Source of the DNA: a virus
Virus record (IMG/VR): IMGVR_UViG_3300018476_000039
Span: 1 to 25,441 of that record
Length of the DNA: 25,441 nt
Strand: one strand, 5' to 3'
In this document: in pieces, positions 1-14,236 of the stretch
Layout of the letters: every line of letters starts with the position of its first letter
Numbering within the stretch: position 1 is the first letter of the stretch
Position numbers and translations under genes: made by a program
The notes under the pieces: generated by a model
What the model saw: only the letters and a program-made list of their open reading frames with translations
The model's database searches: none
Told to the model about the DNA's origin: nothing

Positions 1-744
1 GCCCGACCGAGTTCTGCCCTGCCGCGCCTGCCTTGCTCAGCCACGCCCAGCCCCGCCATGCCCGGCCCTGCCCTGCCTGCCACGCCCGGCCGTGCCCTGC
101 CGAAACAGGTCCCGCCAAGCCACGCCTGCCTTGCCATTGCGGGACATGCCGTGCCGAGCCCAGCCGTGCCATGCCTGCCACGCCACGCCTTGACTGGACC
201 CACCAAGACAGTCCTTGCCCCGCCATGCCATGCCTGCCTTGCCCTGACGAGCCGGTCCGGTCCGTGACTGGCCGCGACAAGCCAAGCCCCGCCTGCACTG
301 CCTCGCCACGCCGCGCCCGGACTTGCCGTGCCTTGCCTGCCGCGCCCGTCCTGTCCACGCCTCGACGCGCCGCGCCCGGCCTAGCCATGCCTGCCTTGCC
401 CGGTCGCGCCAAGCCGCGCCGAGCCGCGCCGTTCCGTGCCTGCCTTACCGCGCCACGCCCGGCCGAGCCCCAACCGGCCGAGCCGAGCCCCGCCTAGCCT
501 GCCTTGCCACGCAACAGCCCTGCCTTGCCACGCAGAACAGACCTAGCCATGCCTGCCTTGCCCCGCCCGGTCTGGACAGTCCTGTCCGGGACGTGCCGTG
601 CCTTGCCTGCCTTGCCCGGACTGGCCTCGCCACGCCGCGCCCAGCCGAACCAAGCCTGCCGTGCCGAGCCGGGACCGGCCGTGCCACGCCGGGACCGACC
701 ATGCCTCGCCTGCCTTGCCGAGCCGCGACATGCCATGCCGTGCC
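1..744. repeat. Degenerate 5-bp-register (NNGCC) array with ~52-bp higher-order unit
   Basis: Nearly every fifth base begins GCC, or a one-base variant of it (GAC, TCC, ACC, GTC). The register is held for long runs, for example 335-389 and 605-742. It is reset by one 4-bp step at each GCCTGCC. That word lies at 26, 75, 124, 173, 232, 335, 389, 438, 497, 551, 605, 654 and 708, with a variant GCCTGCA at 291. The 13 successive spacings are 49, 49, 49, 59, 59, 44, 54, 49, 59, 54, 54, 49 and 54, all equal to 4 modulo 5. Long open frames cross the region on both strands, but a 5-bp period is incompatible with codon periodicity, so I treat it as non-coding. The array may start left of the window. 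It ends 3 bp before the stop codon of the minus-strand gene at 748, so transcripts of that operon would enter it. Function unknown. Confidence 0.93.
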
Positions 745-747
745 AAT

Positions 748-921
748 TCACTTGCGATTTGTCTCGTAGCCTTCAGGCAGATGATGTTGCCCATCCGCTT
801 CGCACTTCCAGAACGCATCACCTTTGCTGCGGCTGTCGCCCCAGCGATAGGTTCCGCTACCCACCTTGTGCAGGTAGATAGCGGAACCACAGTGAACGCA
901 GGTGCTCACGATTACGTTCAT
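748..921 (-). CDS. 57-aa putative zinc-binding protein
   Basis: Starts ATG at 921 and ends TGA at 748-750. The ATG overlaps the TGA of the upstream gene (ATGA), the coupling used throughout this genome. The product has a CVHC pair at residues 8-11 and a third cysteine in a WKC context at residue 40, with histidines following, so a small zinc-ribbon-like fold is possible but the fourth ligand is not obvious. It is the last gene of the minus-strand operon and stops 3 bp before the pentamer array. No family is recognised. The start is chosen from the 4-bp overlap. Confidence 0.75.
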   Translation of the reverse strand: MNVIVSTCVHCGSAIYLHKVGSGTYRWGDSRSKGDAFWKCEADGQHHLPEGYETNRK

Positions 922-1445
922 GCGTGCGGCTGATGCCCTCCCGCCGCCGCATACCGCGCACGACGTTCCGCGATCATTTCACGAGCCTTGCGGATCGCAT
1001 CGCAGATGTCGGCGTGGATCATCAACCGCCTTTCGTAGCTCAACATATCGCTCTCTGCCTGCCGCAGAGCGAGATCGGTCAGGTGCGCGGAACTTATGAT
1101 TTCATCAGCACGGTGGTAGCTGTGACCACTGCGGTCGATAAGGCTGATGAATGCCGGTATCCGGCGTTCCTCGCCGCGTGCCTTATCCACGATATTGATG
1201 GACCCGATCAGATCGCGCGCCTGCACCTGTCGCCACTTGTCGGCGGCAACAGTATCCTCCCACTCAAAGAACCGATGCAGGTAGTTCGACGGCTTGCCCT
1301 TGACGGCTTCAAGCACAGTCTTTGACGTGCATCGGCCCTTGGCCTGCTCTTTGATCTTGCTGAGCGCTTCACCGATCTTTTGCGCGCTCGCCTTGTCAGC
1401 ACCCCGCAGGGTGTTGGGCCGGTCTCGGAATTCGTACTTGATCAT
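918..1445 (-). CDS. Conserved phage protein of unknown function, 175 aa
   Basis: The ATG at 1445 overlaps the stop of the preceding gene by four bases, and its own stop overlaps the next start in the same way, so the three genes 2221 to 748 form one translationally coupled unit. The product is charged and helical. It has a YLHRFFEW segment near the middle and an Arg/Ala-rich C-terminal helix. I have the impression of similar proteins beside phage recombination or replication genes but cannot name a family. No catalytic motif or membrane segment is visible. A structural or DNA-associated accessory role is only an inference from position beside the methyltransferase and nuclease genes. Confidence 0.85.
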   Translation of the reverse strand: MIKYEFRDRPNTLRGADKASAQKIGEALSKIKEQAKGRCTSKTVLEAVKGKPSNYLHRFFEWEDTVAADKWRQVQARDLIGSINIVDKARGEERRIPAFISLIDRSGHSYHRADEIISSAHLTDLALRQAESDMLSYERRLMIHADICDAIRKAREMIAERRARYAAAGGHQPHA

Positions 1446-2221
1446 GCCGCCTCCAGTTGACGAGTTGTGTTGGGCACCGGACCGCGACCTTCAGCGAACC
1501 GCTCCCATGCTGCCTGCTCTACCGCATCAGCAAGACGGAAACCCCCGAACATGCCGCGCTTCTCGTTACGCCACTCACCGATCCCAACACCAAGACCAGC
1601 CTCGATGATCAGGAAGCTGAGCGCTTCCGCTGACAGCACGGTCGGGTTGAATTTGCCGGTCAGGCAGATCGCCCAGTTGGTGAACTGACCACGATAGGCG
1701 AGGCTGGATTTCTTGCTCAAGCCAACGCCGACACGGACCATGTCTTCGCGCATTTCCGGCTCCGAGCCGTAGATGCGGACCAGCGGCATGTCGCAGATCG
1801 CACCGGCCAGCGCCGGTCGCACGCGCACCATGTCGGCCTCGACCCAGAGCGCCGACATCACGGTGGTCCGGGGCACGCCCTTGTCTTTGTGTGCGGTGGT
1901 CAGGATCGCGTTCTTGATGCCGGTGACGGGGAAGCCATAGACCGTCTTGCCCTTGACCTTGCCCATTTCATAGAGAGAATTGACAAAATCCTCCTGCGGG
2001 TTGCGTGCTTCCTTGCCGGTCTTGACCGCCTTCACCTGCTTTTGCAGCATTTCGCGCTTGGCCTTCTCGGACCATGCGTGCACGACAAGCGGCGTGGTGC
2101 CGAGCAGCCAGACCTTGAAGTGCTGATAGACGACCTTGCCGGACAGAACCGTTGCGAGGTTCAATACCTCGTCGCTTGCAGCAGGCTTCACGGGTGCGGG
2201 TTTAGTGGATTTCTTAGCCAT
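1442..2221 (-). CDS. Conserved phage protein with Gly-rich C-terminal motif, 259 aa
   Basis: The ATG at 2221 is preceded by GGAGCA at 2236-2231. An in-frame extension upstream is possible but would run through the promoter region. The first 25 residues are Lys/Pro/Ala-rich and probably flexible. The core contains YGFPVTGIKNAI and, near the C-terminus, GVGIGEWRNEKRGMFGGF. That glycine- and Arg-rich loop recalls nucleic-acid-binding RAMP-like or single-strand-annealing folds in outline, but the resemblance is too weak for a call. It is the first gene of the minus operon and is divergent from the methyltransferase operon across 112 bp. A role in phage DNA metabolism is plausible from context only. 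Confidence 0.88.
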   Translation of the reverse strand: MAKKSTKPAPVKPAASDEVLNLATVLSGKVVYQHFKVWLLGTTPLVVHAWSEKAKREMLQKQVKAVKTGKEARNPQEDFVNSLYEMGKVKGKTVYGFPVTGIKNAILTTAHKDKGVPRTTVMSALWVEADMVRVRPALAGAICDMPLVRIYGSEPEMREDMVRVGVGLSKKSSLAYRGQFTNWAICLTGKFNPTVLSAEALSFLIIEAGLGVGIGEWRNEKRGMFGGFRLADAVEQAAWERFAEGRGPVPNTTRQLEAA

Positions 2222-10557: not shown

Positions 10558-11663
10558 GCCGGGTGCTGGTGGTCGGGGCTGGTCTGTATGGCGCGACGAT
10601 GGCGCGCGAGCTAACGGACGCAGGCCATCATGTGCTGGTGCTGGAGCGCCGCACGCACATCGGCGGCAACGCCTTCACTCGCTGGAACGATGAGACCGCC
10701 TGCCACGAGCACGTCTATGGCGCGCACATCTTCCACACCTCGAACCCGGTGGTCTGGGAGTATGTGCAGCGCTTTGCGACCTTCAACAGCTACCGGCATC
10801 GGGTGCGGGCGATGAGTTCGGGGGTGCTGTATTCGTTTCCGATCAACCTCATGACGCTGCATCAGGTGTTCGGTTCGGCCACGCCGGAGGAAGGGGCCGA
10901 GGCGATGGCGGCCGACTGCATCCCGTGCGACGAGATCAGCAACATGGAGCAGCACTGTCTGGCAACCATTGGGGAGACGCTGTACCGGCTGTTCATCGAG
11001 GGCTACAGCAAGAAGCAGTGGGGTTGCGAGCCGCGGCACCTGCCTGCGTCGACCATCAAGCGCATTCCAGTGCGGCTGGATCACAATGACCGCTACTTTA
11101 ACGATAAGTGGGAGGGCATCCCGGTGGACGGCTACACCGACATGATCCGGCTGATGCTGACCGGCGTGGCGGTAGAGACCGACACCGACATGCTGGAGGC
11201 GCGTGACAACTGGGTCAGCCAATGGGATGCGGTGGTTTACAGCGGCAGCCTTGACGAGTTCTACAGTTACCGGCTGGGGCGGCTGCCGTATCGGTCGCTG
11301 CGGTTCGAGACGCGCATCCTCGATGACAATGATGTGCAGGGCATTGCCGTCATCAACGAGTGCGATTATCCGTTTCCGTCTTGCACCCGGACTATTGAGC
11401 ACAAGCACTTCATGGAGGTGCCGCCGCAGGTCCGCCGCACGCTGCTGACGATTGAAATTCCCGCCAGCGCGGGCGAGCCGTTCTATCCCATCCGCAGCGA
11501 CGAGAGCGACCGGCTGCTGGAGCGCTACCGCAAGCTGGCCGAGCAGGAGCATCCAACCGTTGTGTTCGGCGGCCGGTTGGGCCAGTACCGTTACCTAGAC
11601 ATGCACCAAGTGATTGCCAGCGCACTTGCCAAGTCGCGCGAACTGATGGAGCGCCTGCGATGA
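10554..11663 (+). CDS. glf: UDP-galactopyranose mutase
   Basis: 369 aa, the usual length. It has the N-terminal FAD-binding GAGLYGA (8-14), the ERRTHIGGNAF strand-loop, HVYGAHIFHT, the EGYSKKQWG substrate segment and the C-terminal GGRLGQYRYLDM FAD-contact motif. The enzyme, with reduced FAD, interconverts UDP-galactopyranose and UDP-galactofuranose. Carried between a glycosyltransferase and a sulfotransferase with ATGA overlaps on both sides, it most likely supplies UDP-Galf to the glycosyltransferase. Galactofuranose is rare, so the acceptor is of interest. Conserved motifs are intact, so activity is expected. Confidence 0.95.
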   Translation: MSRVLVVGAGLYGATMARELTDAGHHVLVLERRTHIGGNAFTRWNDETACHEHVYGAHIFHTSNPVVWEYVQRFATFNSYRHRVRAMSSGVLYSFPINLMTLHQVFGSATPEEGAEAMAADCIPCDEISNMEQHCLATIGETLYRLFIEGYSKKQWGCEPRHLPASTIKRIPVRLDHNDRYFNDKWEGIPVDGYTDMIRLMLTGVAVETDTDMLEARDNWVSQWDAVVYSGSLDEFYSYRLGRLPYRSLRFETRILDDNDVQGIAVINECDYPFPSCTRTIEHKHFMEVPPQVRRTLLTIEIPASAGEPFYPIRSDESDRLLERYRKLAEQEHPTVVFGGRLGQYRYLDMHQVIASALAKSRELMERLR

Positions 11664-12364
11664 AGCCACTACTGATGCAAGGGTTGCCCAACTCGGGATC
11701 GACATGGTTTGCCGCCTTGCTCGCCAAGAACATTCGAGGCTGCCGCTACTACGACAAGGAGTTCTTCAACCCAGTGTGCAACATCAAGCACGAGGTGGTG
11801 TTGCGGAAGAATTTCGGCTGCGAACTGGTGTCCTGCTATCGCAACATCGCGACCGCTGGCGGCCCCGGCATCCATGACGACATCCGGGCGACGTGGGGTG
11901 CCGAGAACTACACATTCACCAAGGAGTGCAACAGCGCCTTCAAGCTGCCGGTCTTCATCGAGCACTTCGACTGCTTCGTGTTCCTGCGTTCGGCCAAGAA
12001 CACGTTCCCACCGGGGCGGGCGCGGGTGTGGTCGTTCTACGAGCACGCATGGTGGGCTCTCAGAGAGGCGGGGCATGACGTGGTGGACATCAGCACGCCA
12101 GATCGCGCGCATGAGGCGTTCGGCATCCTCACCGAGGTCATCCTGTACGACGCCAATCGGCTGAAGGTGCCGGTGATCTGGTGGGAGGACTTGGCGGCCG
12201 ATCCAGGGGGAGTGCTCCGCAAGCTGCTGACCGTCACCGGCCTTGACGCGGCGGGCCTGCTCAAGGACATGACAGCGACATTCAAAGACAAAGCGGAGCC
12301 TGCTTTGACAAGCCCCGCCATGCCACGCCAGTCTAGTCCTTGCCCGTCCACGCCAACCACATAA
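11660..12364 (+). CDS. PAPS-dependent sulfotransferase-like protein
   Basis: 234 aa. The N-terminus has the 5'-phosphosulfate loop GLPNSGSTWF (8-17). A FLRSAKN segment (Arg110) and WSFY (Ser125) fit the 3'-phosphate-binding region. The family moves sulfate from PAPS to sugars or other hydroxyls. The next gene encodes an APS kinase, which makes PAPS, so the two fit as donor synthesis and transfer. The ATG overlaps the mutase stop. The last ~20 codons lie in an NNGCC pentamer element (12312-12354) and read as Pro/Ser/Thr-rich sequence unlike the rest of the protein; the element probably inserted and replaced the original end. Confidence 0.82.
   Translation: MKPLLMQGLPNSGSTWFAALLAKNIRGCRYYDKEFFNPVCNIKHEVVLRKNFGCELVSCYRNIATAGGPGIHDDIRATWGAENYTFTKECNSAFKLPVFIEHFDCFVFLRSAKNTFPPGRARVWSFYEHAWWALREAGHDVVDISTPDRAHEAFGILTEVILYDANRLKVPVIWWEDLAADPGGVLRKLLTVTGLDAAGLLKDMTATFKDKAEPALTSPAMPRQSSPCPSTPTT
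12312..12354. repeat. Displaced copy of the NNGCC pentamer element
   Basis: Triplets at 12312, 12317, 12322, 12327, 12332, 12337, 12342, 12347 and 12352 read GCC, GCC, GCC, GCC, TCT, TCC, GCC, TCC, GCC: the same 5-bp register and substitution types as the array at 1-744. The word AGTCCTTGCCC is shared with positions 210-220 apart from one flank base. It is about one higher-order unit long and spans the 3' end of the sulfotransferase gene. Confidence 0.82.
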
Positions 12365-12384: not shown

Positions 12385-13161
12385 TTGCGCAAACTTCTGA
12401 TCATGGGCCTGCCGGGTGCAGGCAAGACGACGCTGGCGACGCTGGTGGCGGCGCGGATCAACGCCGTTCATTTCAACGCCGATGAGGTGCGGGCGAACAT
12501 CAACAGCGATCTCGGGTTCTCCGAGGCCGACCGGATCGAGCACGCCCGGCGGATGGGGTGGCTGTGCGACCGGGTGGTGGCGACCGGGGGCTTTGCTGTG
12601 GCGGACTTTATCTGCCCTACGGAAGCCGCCCGTGCGGCCTTTTTTTTAGGCGGGGGAGGGTGCCTGATCTTCGTGGATCGCATTGAGGCGGGGCGCTACG
12701 AGGATACGAACAGGCTTTTCGAGGCTCCTGCGGTCCACGATCTGCGGGTGGGGCCGGATGGAACTCCCGAGTATTGGGCCGAGCAGGTGGTGAAGCTGGT
12801 CCGGCCGGTGTTCAACCCGCGTCGGGCGACGGCGCTGATGGTCGGGCGCTTCCAGCCGTTCCATGCCGGGCACAAGGCGCTGGCCGAGGAAGCGATCCGG
12901 CGAGCCGGTCAGGTCTGCATTGCGGTGCGCAACACCATGCGCGACGGCGGCAACCCGTTCGGGTTCGAGGATGTGCGGGCTCGCATCGAGCATGCCATGC
13001 GCGAGCACGAGGGCAAGTTCATCGTGCAGCAGGTGCCGAACATCAGCACCATCCTGTACGGGCGTGACGTCGGCTACAGCATCGAGCGGGTGGACTTGGG
13101 CGAGGCGACGGAAGCTATCTCAGCCACCGCCGCCCGCGCCAAGCTCACGGCAGCTTCGTGA
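12385..13161 (+). CDS. Bifunctional APS kinase / NMNAT-like nucleotidyltransferase
   Basis: 258 aa from TTG at 12385, placed 8 nt after AGGAAAG; upstream in-frame TTGs lie inside the pentamer element and are rejected. The kinase domain has P-loop GLPGAGKT (8-15), then ADEVRANINSDLGFSEADR, the APS-kinase signature, which phosphorylates adenylyl sulfate to PAPS. The C-terminal domain has GRFQPFHAGH with HxGH at 160-163 and an ISATAAR motif at 245-251, as in NMN/cytidylyl-type transferases. The ATP-sulfurylase signature is not evident, so the second activity may make another nucleotide donor or, less likely, APS itself. Rhizobial NodQ fuses APS kinase to ATP sulfurylase for Nod-factor sulfation, a useful analogy. 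A T8 run and terminator-like stem lie inside the gene. Confidence 0.88.
   Translation: MRKLLIMGLPGAGKTTLATLVAARINAVHFNADEVRANINSDLGFSEADRIEHARRMGWLCDRVVATGGFAVADFICPTEAARAAFFLGGGGCLIFVDRIEAGRYEDTNRLFEAPAVHDLRVGPDGTPEYWAEQVVKLVRPVFNPRRATALMVGRFQPFHAGHKALAEEAIRRAGQVCIAVRNTMRDGGNPFGFEDVRARIEHAMREHEGKFIVQQVPNISTILYGRDVGYSIERVDLGEATEAISATAARAKLTAAS
12625..12647 (+). terminator. Terminator-like hairpin inside the APS kinase gene
   Basis: Stem GCCGC (12625-12629) / GCGGC (12634-12638) with loop CCGT, then C and eight Ts (12640-12647). It is short but has an ideal U-tract. It lies in codons for the FF-L segment between two clearly APS-kinase-like blocks that share one frame. Confidence 0.45.
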
Positions 13162-13979: not shown

Positions 13980-14236
13980 CAGCGCCTCCCGTTCGGTGTG
14001 ATCGTGCTCTGCACGCGCCCGTCGCTGCCGTAGATCGTGACGGTGCCGTTACTGCCGGTGGATGTGCGGCCCTGCACGCGGCCGTCGCTGCCGTAGACTG
14101 TGGTGCTGCCGTTCGAGCCGGTATGGGTGCGGGCCTGCACCCTGCCGTCGCGCCCGTAGATGGTGGTGCTCTCTGCGCGCAGATCGTGCGGCCAGAGCAT
14201 CAGCAGCGCGAGCGCTGCGGCGGTGATCCTGCTCAT
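13979..14236 (-). CDS. Secreted 21-residue tandem-repeat protein
   Basis: 85 aa: a signal peptide (hydrophobic AAALALLML and likely cleavage after LRA, near residue 21), then three copies of a 21-residue repeat at 23-43, 44-64 and 65-83 with core YGSDGRVQ and TGSNG. The DNA repeats with a 63-bp period. Secreted proteins with similar short Tyr-Gly-x-Asp-Gly-Arg repeats are found widely in Proteobacteria and their mobile elements. A periplasmic or envelope role is likely; the copy number could vary by recombination. ATG overlaps the upstream stop (ATGA), and GGAGAC lies 5 nt upstream. Confidence 0.8.
   Translation of the reverse strand: MSRITAAALALLMLWPHDLRAESTTIYGRDGRVQARTHTGSNGSTTVYGSDGRVQGRTSTGSNGTVTIYGSDGRVQSTITPNGRR

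Follow-up and report, generated by a model that had tools for sequence, protein, structure and literature searches.

The pentamer unit that forms the end of the sulfotransferase-like gene, displaced from the main repeat array, is probably (about 0.7) a stand-alone vrRNA of the phage's own VIPR system, encoded on the minus strand and carrying a guide against APS-kinase-like genes of the neighbouring type in rival phages. VIPR (Viral Interference Programmable Repeat), a CRISPR-ancestor-like system, is described in a 2026 preprint for phage SUSP1, type II (PMC13142463). According to that preprint, its components are the Vipr protein, a vap gene and vrRNAs with 9-16 YNNGG repeats, the NN dinucleotides pair with DNA while skipping one base, usually the codon wobble base, and the natural targets are competing phages (PMC13142463). 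The window analysed here is a whole stretch of 25,441 nucleotides, positions 1 to 25,441 of IMG/VR record IMGVR_UViG_3300018476_000039, and the features on which the argument draws are as follows.

16-744, minus strand: predicted main vrRNA array, staggered, with 13-14 GGCNN tracts split by GGCAGGC junctions
918-1445, minus strand: partner gene of vipr (vap-like), phrog_15946
1442-2191, minus strand: predicted vipr gene (RAMP protein), phrog_4652; the profile match spans 1514-2137
11660-12364, plus strand: sulfotransferase-like gene; its last ~18 codons are antisense to the candidate solo vrRNA
12292-12319, minus strand: terminator-like hairpin of 12 pairs at the vrRNA 3' end, followed by TTGTCTTT
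12298-12364, minus strand: candidate solo vrRNA gene, a GGY/NN tract (triplets 12302-12354) with a GCCT/GCT 4-bp slip on its 3' side
12385-12410, plus strand: best guide match in the window (1-nt skip), the first nine codons of the APS-kinase-like gene
12385-13161, plus strand: APS-kinase-like P-loop kinase fused to a nucleotidyltransferase (NMNAT/cytidylyltransferase-like), with a TTG start

The VIPR locus and the displaced unit

The product of 1442-2191 is identified from profile comparison and structure prediction as a Vipr RAMP-family protein. The profile of its family matches PDB 36pp_D, the solved SUSP1 Vipr, with an E-value of 6e-39, 70 of 71 family members match phrog_4652, and the predicted structure (pLDDT 87) aligns with Csm3/Cas7 RAMPs at Z ~11. 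The main array extends to the left contig end, and its (GGCNN)n lies on the same strand as, and 3' of, the coding strand of vipr and its partner. GGC dominates among the triplets, with GGA and GTC as local variants, and a 4-bp slip (GCCTGCC on the GCC strand) separates the tracts. Intergenic GGY/NN arrays with hypervariable NN on the vipr coding strand are a VIPR feature that the window locus shares; as judged from its sequence, the main array is a VIPR vrRNA array. Its guides have no significant targets in the 2 Mb searched. Neither Pfam nor Rfam was informative on the array, vipr or the partner; the array family was identified through a PDB sequence search, and literature searches on pentamer repeats gave nothing earlier. 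TRAP-like ring binding, suggested by the 5-nt period, was dropped once the relation to Vipr was found.

GCCNN arrays are widespread, occurring in at least 120 viral contigs and 36 bacterial-genome loci, and among phage records in 27 from Mycobacterium phages and three from Gordonia phages. A survey of 155 loci, in which a simple script based on codon usage called the genes, places 210 of 220 arrays between genes. Between co-directional genes, GGCNN lies on the mRNA strand in 140 of 147 cases and on the opposite strand in seven; antisense orientation is rare (7/167 arrays). Two gene families dominate the flanks, one of ~200 aa (vipr, 78 loci) and one of ~155 aa (the partner family phrog_15946, 42 loci), and the window contains both.

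Cultured Mycobacterium smegmatis phages of the genus Cheoctovirus and a Gordonia phage carry VIPR-type arrays in their early region. The array-bearing L159, L160, L161 and L162 are Mattes, Brocalys, UmaThurman and Quico. The array and a flanking gene (gp52 in Mattes) co-occur in exactly the same 27 Mycobacterium records, and the arrays differ despite flanks that are 98-100% identical. These Cheoctovirus and Gordonia phages would make good laboratory models. In L012, L037 and L104, other junction words stand between the GGCNN tracts (TGAACGCC, TGCGGTGCC and TGAGGTAGCC on the GCC strand), and by their sequence these are other array architectures.

The displaced unit, ~11.5 kb from the main array, comprises nine triplets at exact 5-bp spacing between 12312 and 12354 (GCC, GCC, GCC, GCC, TCT, TCC, GCC, TCC, GCC), as the preliminary description had reported. 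The register continues further leftward through GAC at 12307 and GCT at 12302, and the left end carries a 4-bp slip (GCC 12298 / T / GCT 12302) as in the main array, a detail absent from that description. A register scan of both strands across the 25 kb finds this to be the sole GCC-register segment outside the main array. Its register score is 11.7, against a best of ~8 in 300 third-order Markov genomes; the phage DNA flanking APS-kinase homologues (361 kb, GC 40%) holds no segment of 8 or more, and the top clearly coding register segment in 694 kb of GC-rich DNA outside arrays reaches 10.6. On the minus strand the unit reads GGC-gt-GGA-cg-GGC-aa-GGA-ct-AGA-ct-GGC-gt-GGC-at-GGC-gg-GGC-tt-GTC-aa-AGC-ag-GC, with 11 in-register triplets, a repeat number within the published vrRNA range. 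Six are exact GGC and the rest GGA, AGA, GTC or AGC; three of the 11 (TCT, GCT and GAC on the GCC strand) are poor.

Unit and array share an exact 11-mer, AGTCCTTGCCC, present at 210-220 and 12335-12345, absent elsewhere in the window and found in 0 of 100 shuffles. The GAC and TCC triplets are variants typical of the phage's own main array. The whole unit matches its own array at 33/53 positions and the arrays of other phages at 31-39/53, and a copy of the phage's own array was rejected as its origin because this similarity is only average. A search for an IS or MITE found no identical or near-identical copies elsewhere in the genome, only the 11-mer being common with the array, and neither terminal repeats nor a target duplication were noticed.

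The unit runs antisense to the glycosyltransferase-UGM-sulfotransferase-kinase operon. On the minus strand the tract is followed immediately by the 12292-12319 hairpin (-20.1 kcal/mol, z -4.2) with its T-rich tail, which ranks 20 among 207 array 3' ends. The published vrRNAs have a structured 3' extension (PMC13142463), of which this hairpin may be a counterpart; the main array, cut by the contig end, offers no tail for comparison. A hairpin with a T-run follows 5 of 8 antisense-oriented arrays, compared with 12 of 139 sense-oriented ones, which gives the antisense solo units the look of transcription units in their own right. At the displaced unit no promoter, and nothing sigma-70-like, was recognised on the minus strand.

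The sulfotransferase gene end and the mosaic joint

The sulfotransferase-like gene has no Pfam or PHROG match, and its name is that of the preliminary description. Its sole homologue found lies in L002, is 67% identical over its length and stands in the same gene order (glycosyltransferase-UGM-sulfotransferase); no further homologues appear in phages or in 385 genomes. Alignment of the two gene ends shows that the L002 homologue terminates just past the residues aligned to window residue 216, without the pentamer register or the unit's residues. The window gene extends ~18 codons beyond that stop, through the displaced unit, which thus adds to the coding region instead of replacing its end, as had been supposed. 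With the candidate vrRNA on the minus strand, the extra C-terminal residues look like a by-product. The unit does end, as described earlier, just before the Shine-Dalgarno sequence of the APS-kinase-like gene.

That kinase gene is common to the window and L164, in which a different gene precedes it. With the L002-shared sulfotransferase module on one side and the L164-shared kinase module on the other, the unit is placed by this comparison at a mosaic boundary. The joint may have arisen by insertion or by mosaic joining, and none of the records compared has an empty site with matching flanks.

The segment 9790-12364 encodes in succession a glycosyltransferase, a UDP-galactopyranose-mutase-like gene and the sulfotransferase-like gene. 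The glycosyltransferase has weak matches to the TET-associated GT family (Pfam TAGT, below cut-off) and to beta-glucosyl-HMC glucosyltransferase (phrog_842), and the three genes possibly form a DNA base or surface modification cassette. Further along, at 14009-14170, a small minus-strand ORF contains 2.6 copies of a 63-bp tandem repeat and encodes repeated YGSDGRVQ-like peptides; similar peptides occur in L002. The fusion domain of the 12385-13161 product matches phrog_10255 and, weakly, phrog_3462; a role in NAD salvage or nucleotide modification is possible. A terminator-like hairpin followed by eight T lies on the plus strand at 12618-12642, inside the kinase reading frame.

The guide and the start of the kinase gene

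The guide dinucleotides of the displaced unit are GT CG AA CT CT GT AT GG TT. Decoded with the published 1-nt skip, they give GTx CGx AAx CTx CTx GTx ATx GGx TTx, or V/M-R-K-L-L-V-M-G-F. The best match falls on the first codons of the APS-kinase-like gene, TTG CGC AAA CTT CTG ATC ATG GGC CT(G), which lies 31 bp from the unit and is matched in codon register. This match, imperfect and found post hoc, covers 15/18 positions for nine NN, the next best site on either strand of the window reaching 13; for the eight NN within 12312-12354 it covers 14/16, with a next best of 11. Two of the three mismatches are capable of G-U pairing, which would raise the score to 17/18. Skips of 0, 2 or 3 nt produce no comparable match in the window. 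From permuted guides, 1.7e-4 matches of this quality would be expected within 300 bp and 0.015 across the window; at the site itself, 51 of 200000 permuted orders, identity included, do as well as the true guide.

The fit extends to the gene family. Across 16 homologous gene starts the mean match is 12.8/18, compared with 6.6 for permuted guides, and 2 of 20000 permutations reach 12.8. Among ~65 homologue starts only those of the window and L256 score 15, and only the window allele shares the guide's CTN at codon 4; the guide codons at the three mismatched positions (GTG start, Val, Phe/Leu) all occur there in homologues. No perfect APS-kinase target is present in the viral contigs, where none of 42 pattern matches falls in an APS kinase, and 385 alphaproteobacterial genomes contain 45 matches with at most two mismatches, near the level of a reversed-pattern control. 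Since most guides would by chance score 15/18 somewhere else in 2 Mb, the evidence consists of adjacency, codon register and the family-level fit.

Comparable cases exist in other phages. A strong local match with a 1-nt skip is found for 3 of 15 antisense units (those of the window, L106 and L038:10440) and for 5 of 339 sense units, an excess with a Fisher probability of 0.003, or 0.027 without the window. In L106 an antisense solo unit with a terminator lies between baseplate genes, and its guide, AT TA GT AA GC GT AG GT GG CA GA, reads M-Y-V-K-A-V-R-V-G-Q. It matches the phage's own neighbouring baseplate allele at 18/22 and two sibling alleles at 19/22, on homologous codons and in frame, a fit reached by 0-1 of 20000 permutations; the one-position gap between own and sibling alleles is too small to be proof of exclusion. 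Of 80 loci with the L106 neighbour gene, 77 are empty at that gap; the unit-bearing ones are L106 itself and L315/L316. The L315/L316 unit has a similar hairpin and another guide, with no match to the neighbour gene, so unit content appears to change in place. Exact targets of the L106 and L112 guides are absent from the viral contigs. In L141 a vrRNA tract at 1833-1895 has a guide that fits the adjacent vipr (2092-2787) in codon register, with 2 of 9 NN differing.

Taken over all guides, near matches number 21, compared with 5.5 for permuted guides and only ~1.7-fold over far windows, and neighbour-targeting as a general rule is suggestive only. No Vipr was found in the partial records of L002, L164, L106, L038, L033 and L068; solitary units there may therefore act through a Vipr encoded elsewhere, or vipr may lie outside the fragments.

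Alternative readings and known systems

Under the preferred reading, the displaced unit would be transcribed from the minus strand, antisense to the operon, to give a solo vrRNA whose GGY-type triplets are held by Vipr subunits. The intervening dinucleotides would serve as the guide, read with a 1-nt skip, and would recognise the 5' end of APS-kinase-like genes of the downstream-neighbour kind, where the Vipr complex would block transcription. Its chief use would be against related phages with another allele of this gene. The phage's own allele differs from the guide at three positions, which may or may not protect it. Visible in the sequence itself are the unit with its register, the Vipr-partner-array locus, the in-register match at the kinase start, the hairpin with its T-run and the lack of the unit in the L002 homologue, whereas transcription, loading on Vipr, repression and a use against siblings are inferred. 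Against this reading stand the failure to recognise a promoter, the rarity of antisense arrays, the imperfect match and the three poor triplets. A more specific proposal, which we put forward tentatively and hold to be somewhat doubtful, is RNA-guided marker exclusion, in which a solitary antisense vrRNA beside its own diverged allele silences the allele of a sibling at co-infection. If so, guide and allele would spread together, as a free-standing homing endonuclease does with its resistant site.

The main rival is self-regulation, in which the solo vrRNA acts on the APS-kinase-like gene of its own phage and represses it, for instance in lysogeny or early infection. The adjacent site, the joint best score of the own allele among the homologue starts and its exclusive CTN at codon 4 all speak for this, and because the target sits upstream of the point where the vrRNA begins, binding there could also reduce the vrRNA itself. 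It is nonetheless unlikely, given one true and two wobble mismatches to the own target, the slightly better fit of the L106 siblings than of the phage itself, and the competing elements named as targets in the preprint (PMC13142463). Still less probable is a dead scar at the sulfotransferase-kinase joint, where what was once a vrRNA or part of an array would persist without function. The separation of L002-shared from L164-shared modules there, the degenerate triplets and the failure to recognise a promoter agree with such a remnant, whereas a guide match in codon register to the adjacent gene and a hairpin with a T-run in the right place would be unexpected.

The preliminary description favoured a dispersed or mobile element captured at gene ends. 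Part of this stands: unit and array are alike in kind, the unit is dispersed, and it is absent from the homologue's gene end, with presence/absence polymorphism between relatives and a location at a gene boundary. Mobility as such is improbable to a high degree, since the unit is a single copy in which no signature of transposition was noticed and which is not a recent copy of the array, and since the L106 gap holds a different guide in L315/L316; capture as a C-terminus fares no better at a mosaic boundary with the minus strand as the candidate functional strand. Hardly credible, finally, is chance periodicity in a low-complexity, proline/serine-rich C-terminus with GCC at 5-bp steps. The modest register score and the average similarity to the own array would suit it, but Markov genomes never reach that score, control DNA holds nothing comparable, the slip junction, the guide match and the hairpin would have to be explained as well, and the L002 homologue lacks these C-terminal residues.

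The stand-alone vrRNA reading resembles SUSP1 VIPR in its Vipr RAMP protein, phage-borne location, GGY/NN vrRNAs and hypervariable NN; its small vap-like partner gene and the candidate target match, in which the one skipped nucleotide falls on the wobble base, would be further points of likeness. The preprint includes staggered arrays (fig. S18) and single-vrRNA systems (PMC13142463), and the window array with its GGCAGGC junctions likewise looks like overlapping units. Published vrRNAs adjoin vipr (PMC13142463), whereas the candidate vrRNA of the window is separated from the locus by more than 11 kb, runs antisense to an unrelated operon, has its own terminator-like hairpin and stands beside the gene that its guide fits. 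Orphan or self-targeting guides, terminators and mycobacteriophages do not come up in the main text of the preprint (PMC13142463). The displaced unit is hence best classed as a putative VIPR member in an undescribed arrangement. If solitary vrRNAs do sit in unrelated operons beside their targets, vipr-anchored searches would miss part of the guide repertoire, and a link between guide and neighbouring allele would make targets readable directly from genomes. The fold of the window Vipr recalls the RAMPs of class 1 CRISPR systems, Csm3/Cas7; unlike those systems, the window has 5-nt repeats and no repeat-spacer arrays, and neither cas genes nor a CRISPR array were noticed in it.

In marker exclusion by homing endonucleases, a selfish factor lies beside its own resistant allele and is aimed at the allele of a sibling. 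Free-standing homing endonucleases and marker exclusion in T4-like phages are the topic of PMC2988022, and nuclease genes at boundaries of genetic exchange that of PMC10448857. The arrangement proposed here would work in a similar way, with a factor beside its own allele, directed against that of a sibling and located at an exchange boundary, a comparison of operation and not of membership. In contrast to those nucleases, the window system would be RNA-guided, and a vipr without a nuclease is expected to repress and not to cut. If the reading holds, it would represent an RNA-guided counterpart to homing-endonuclease marker exclusion.
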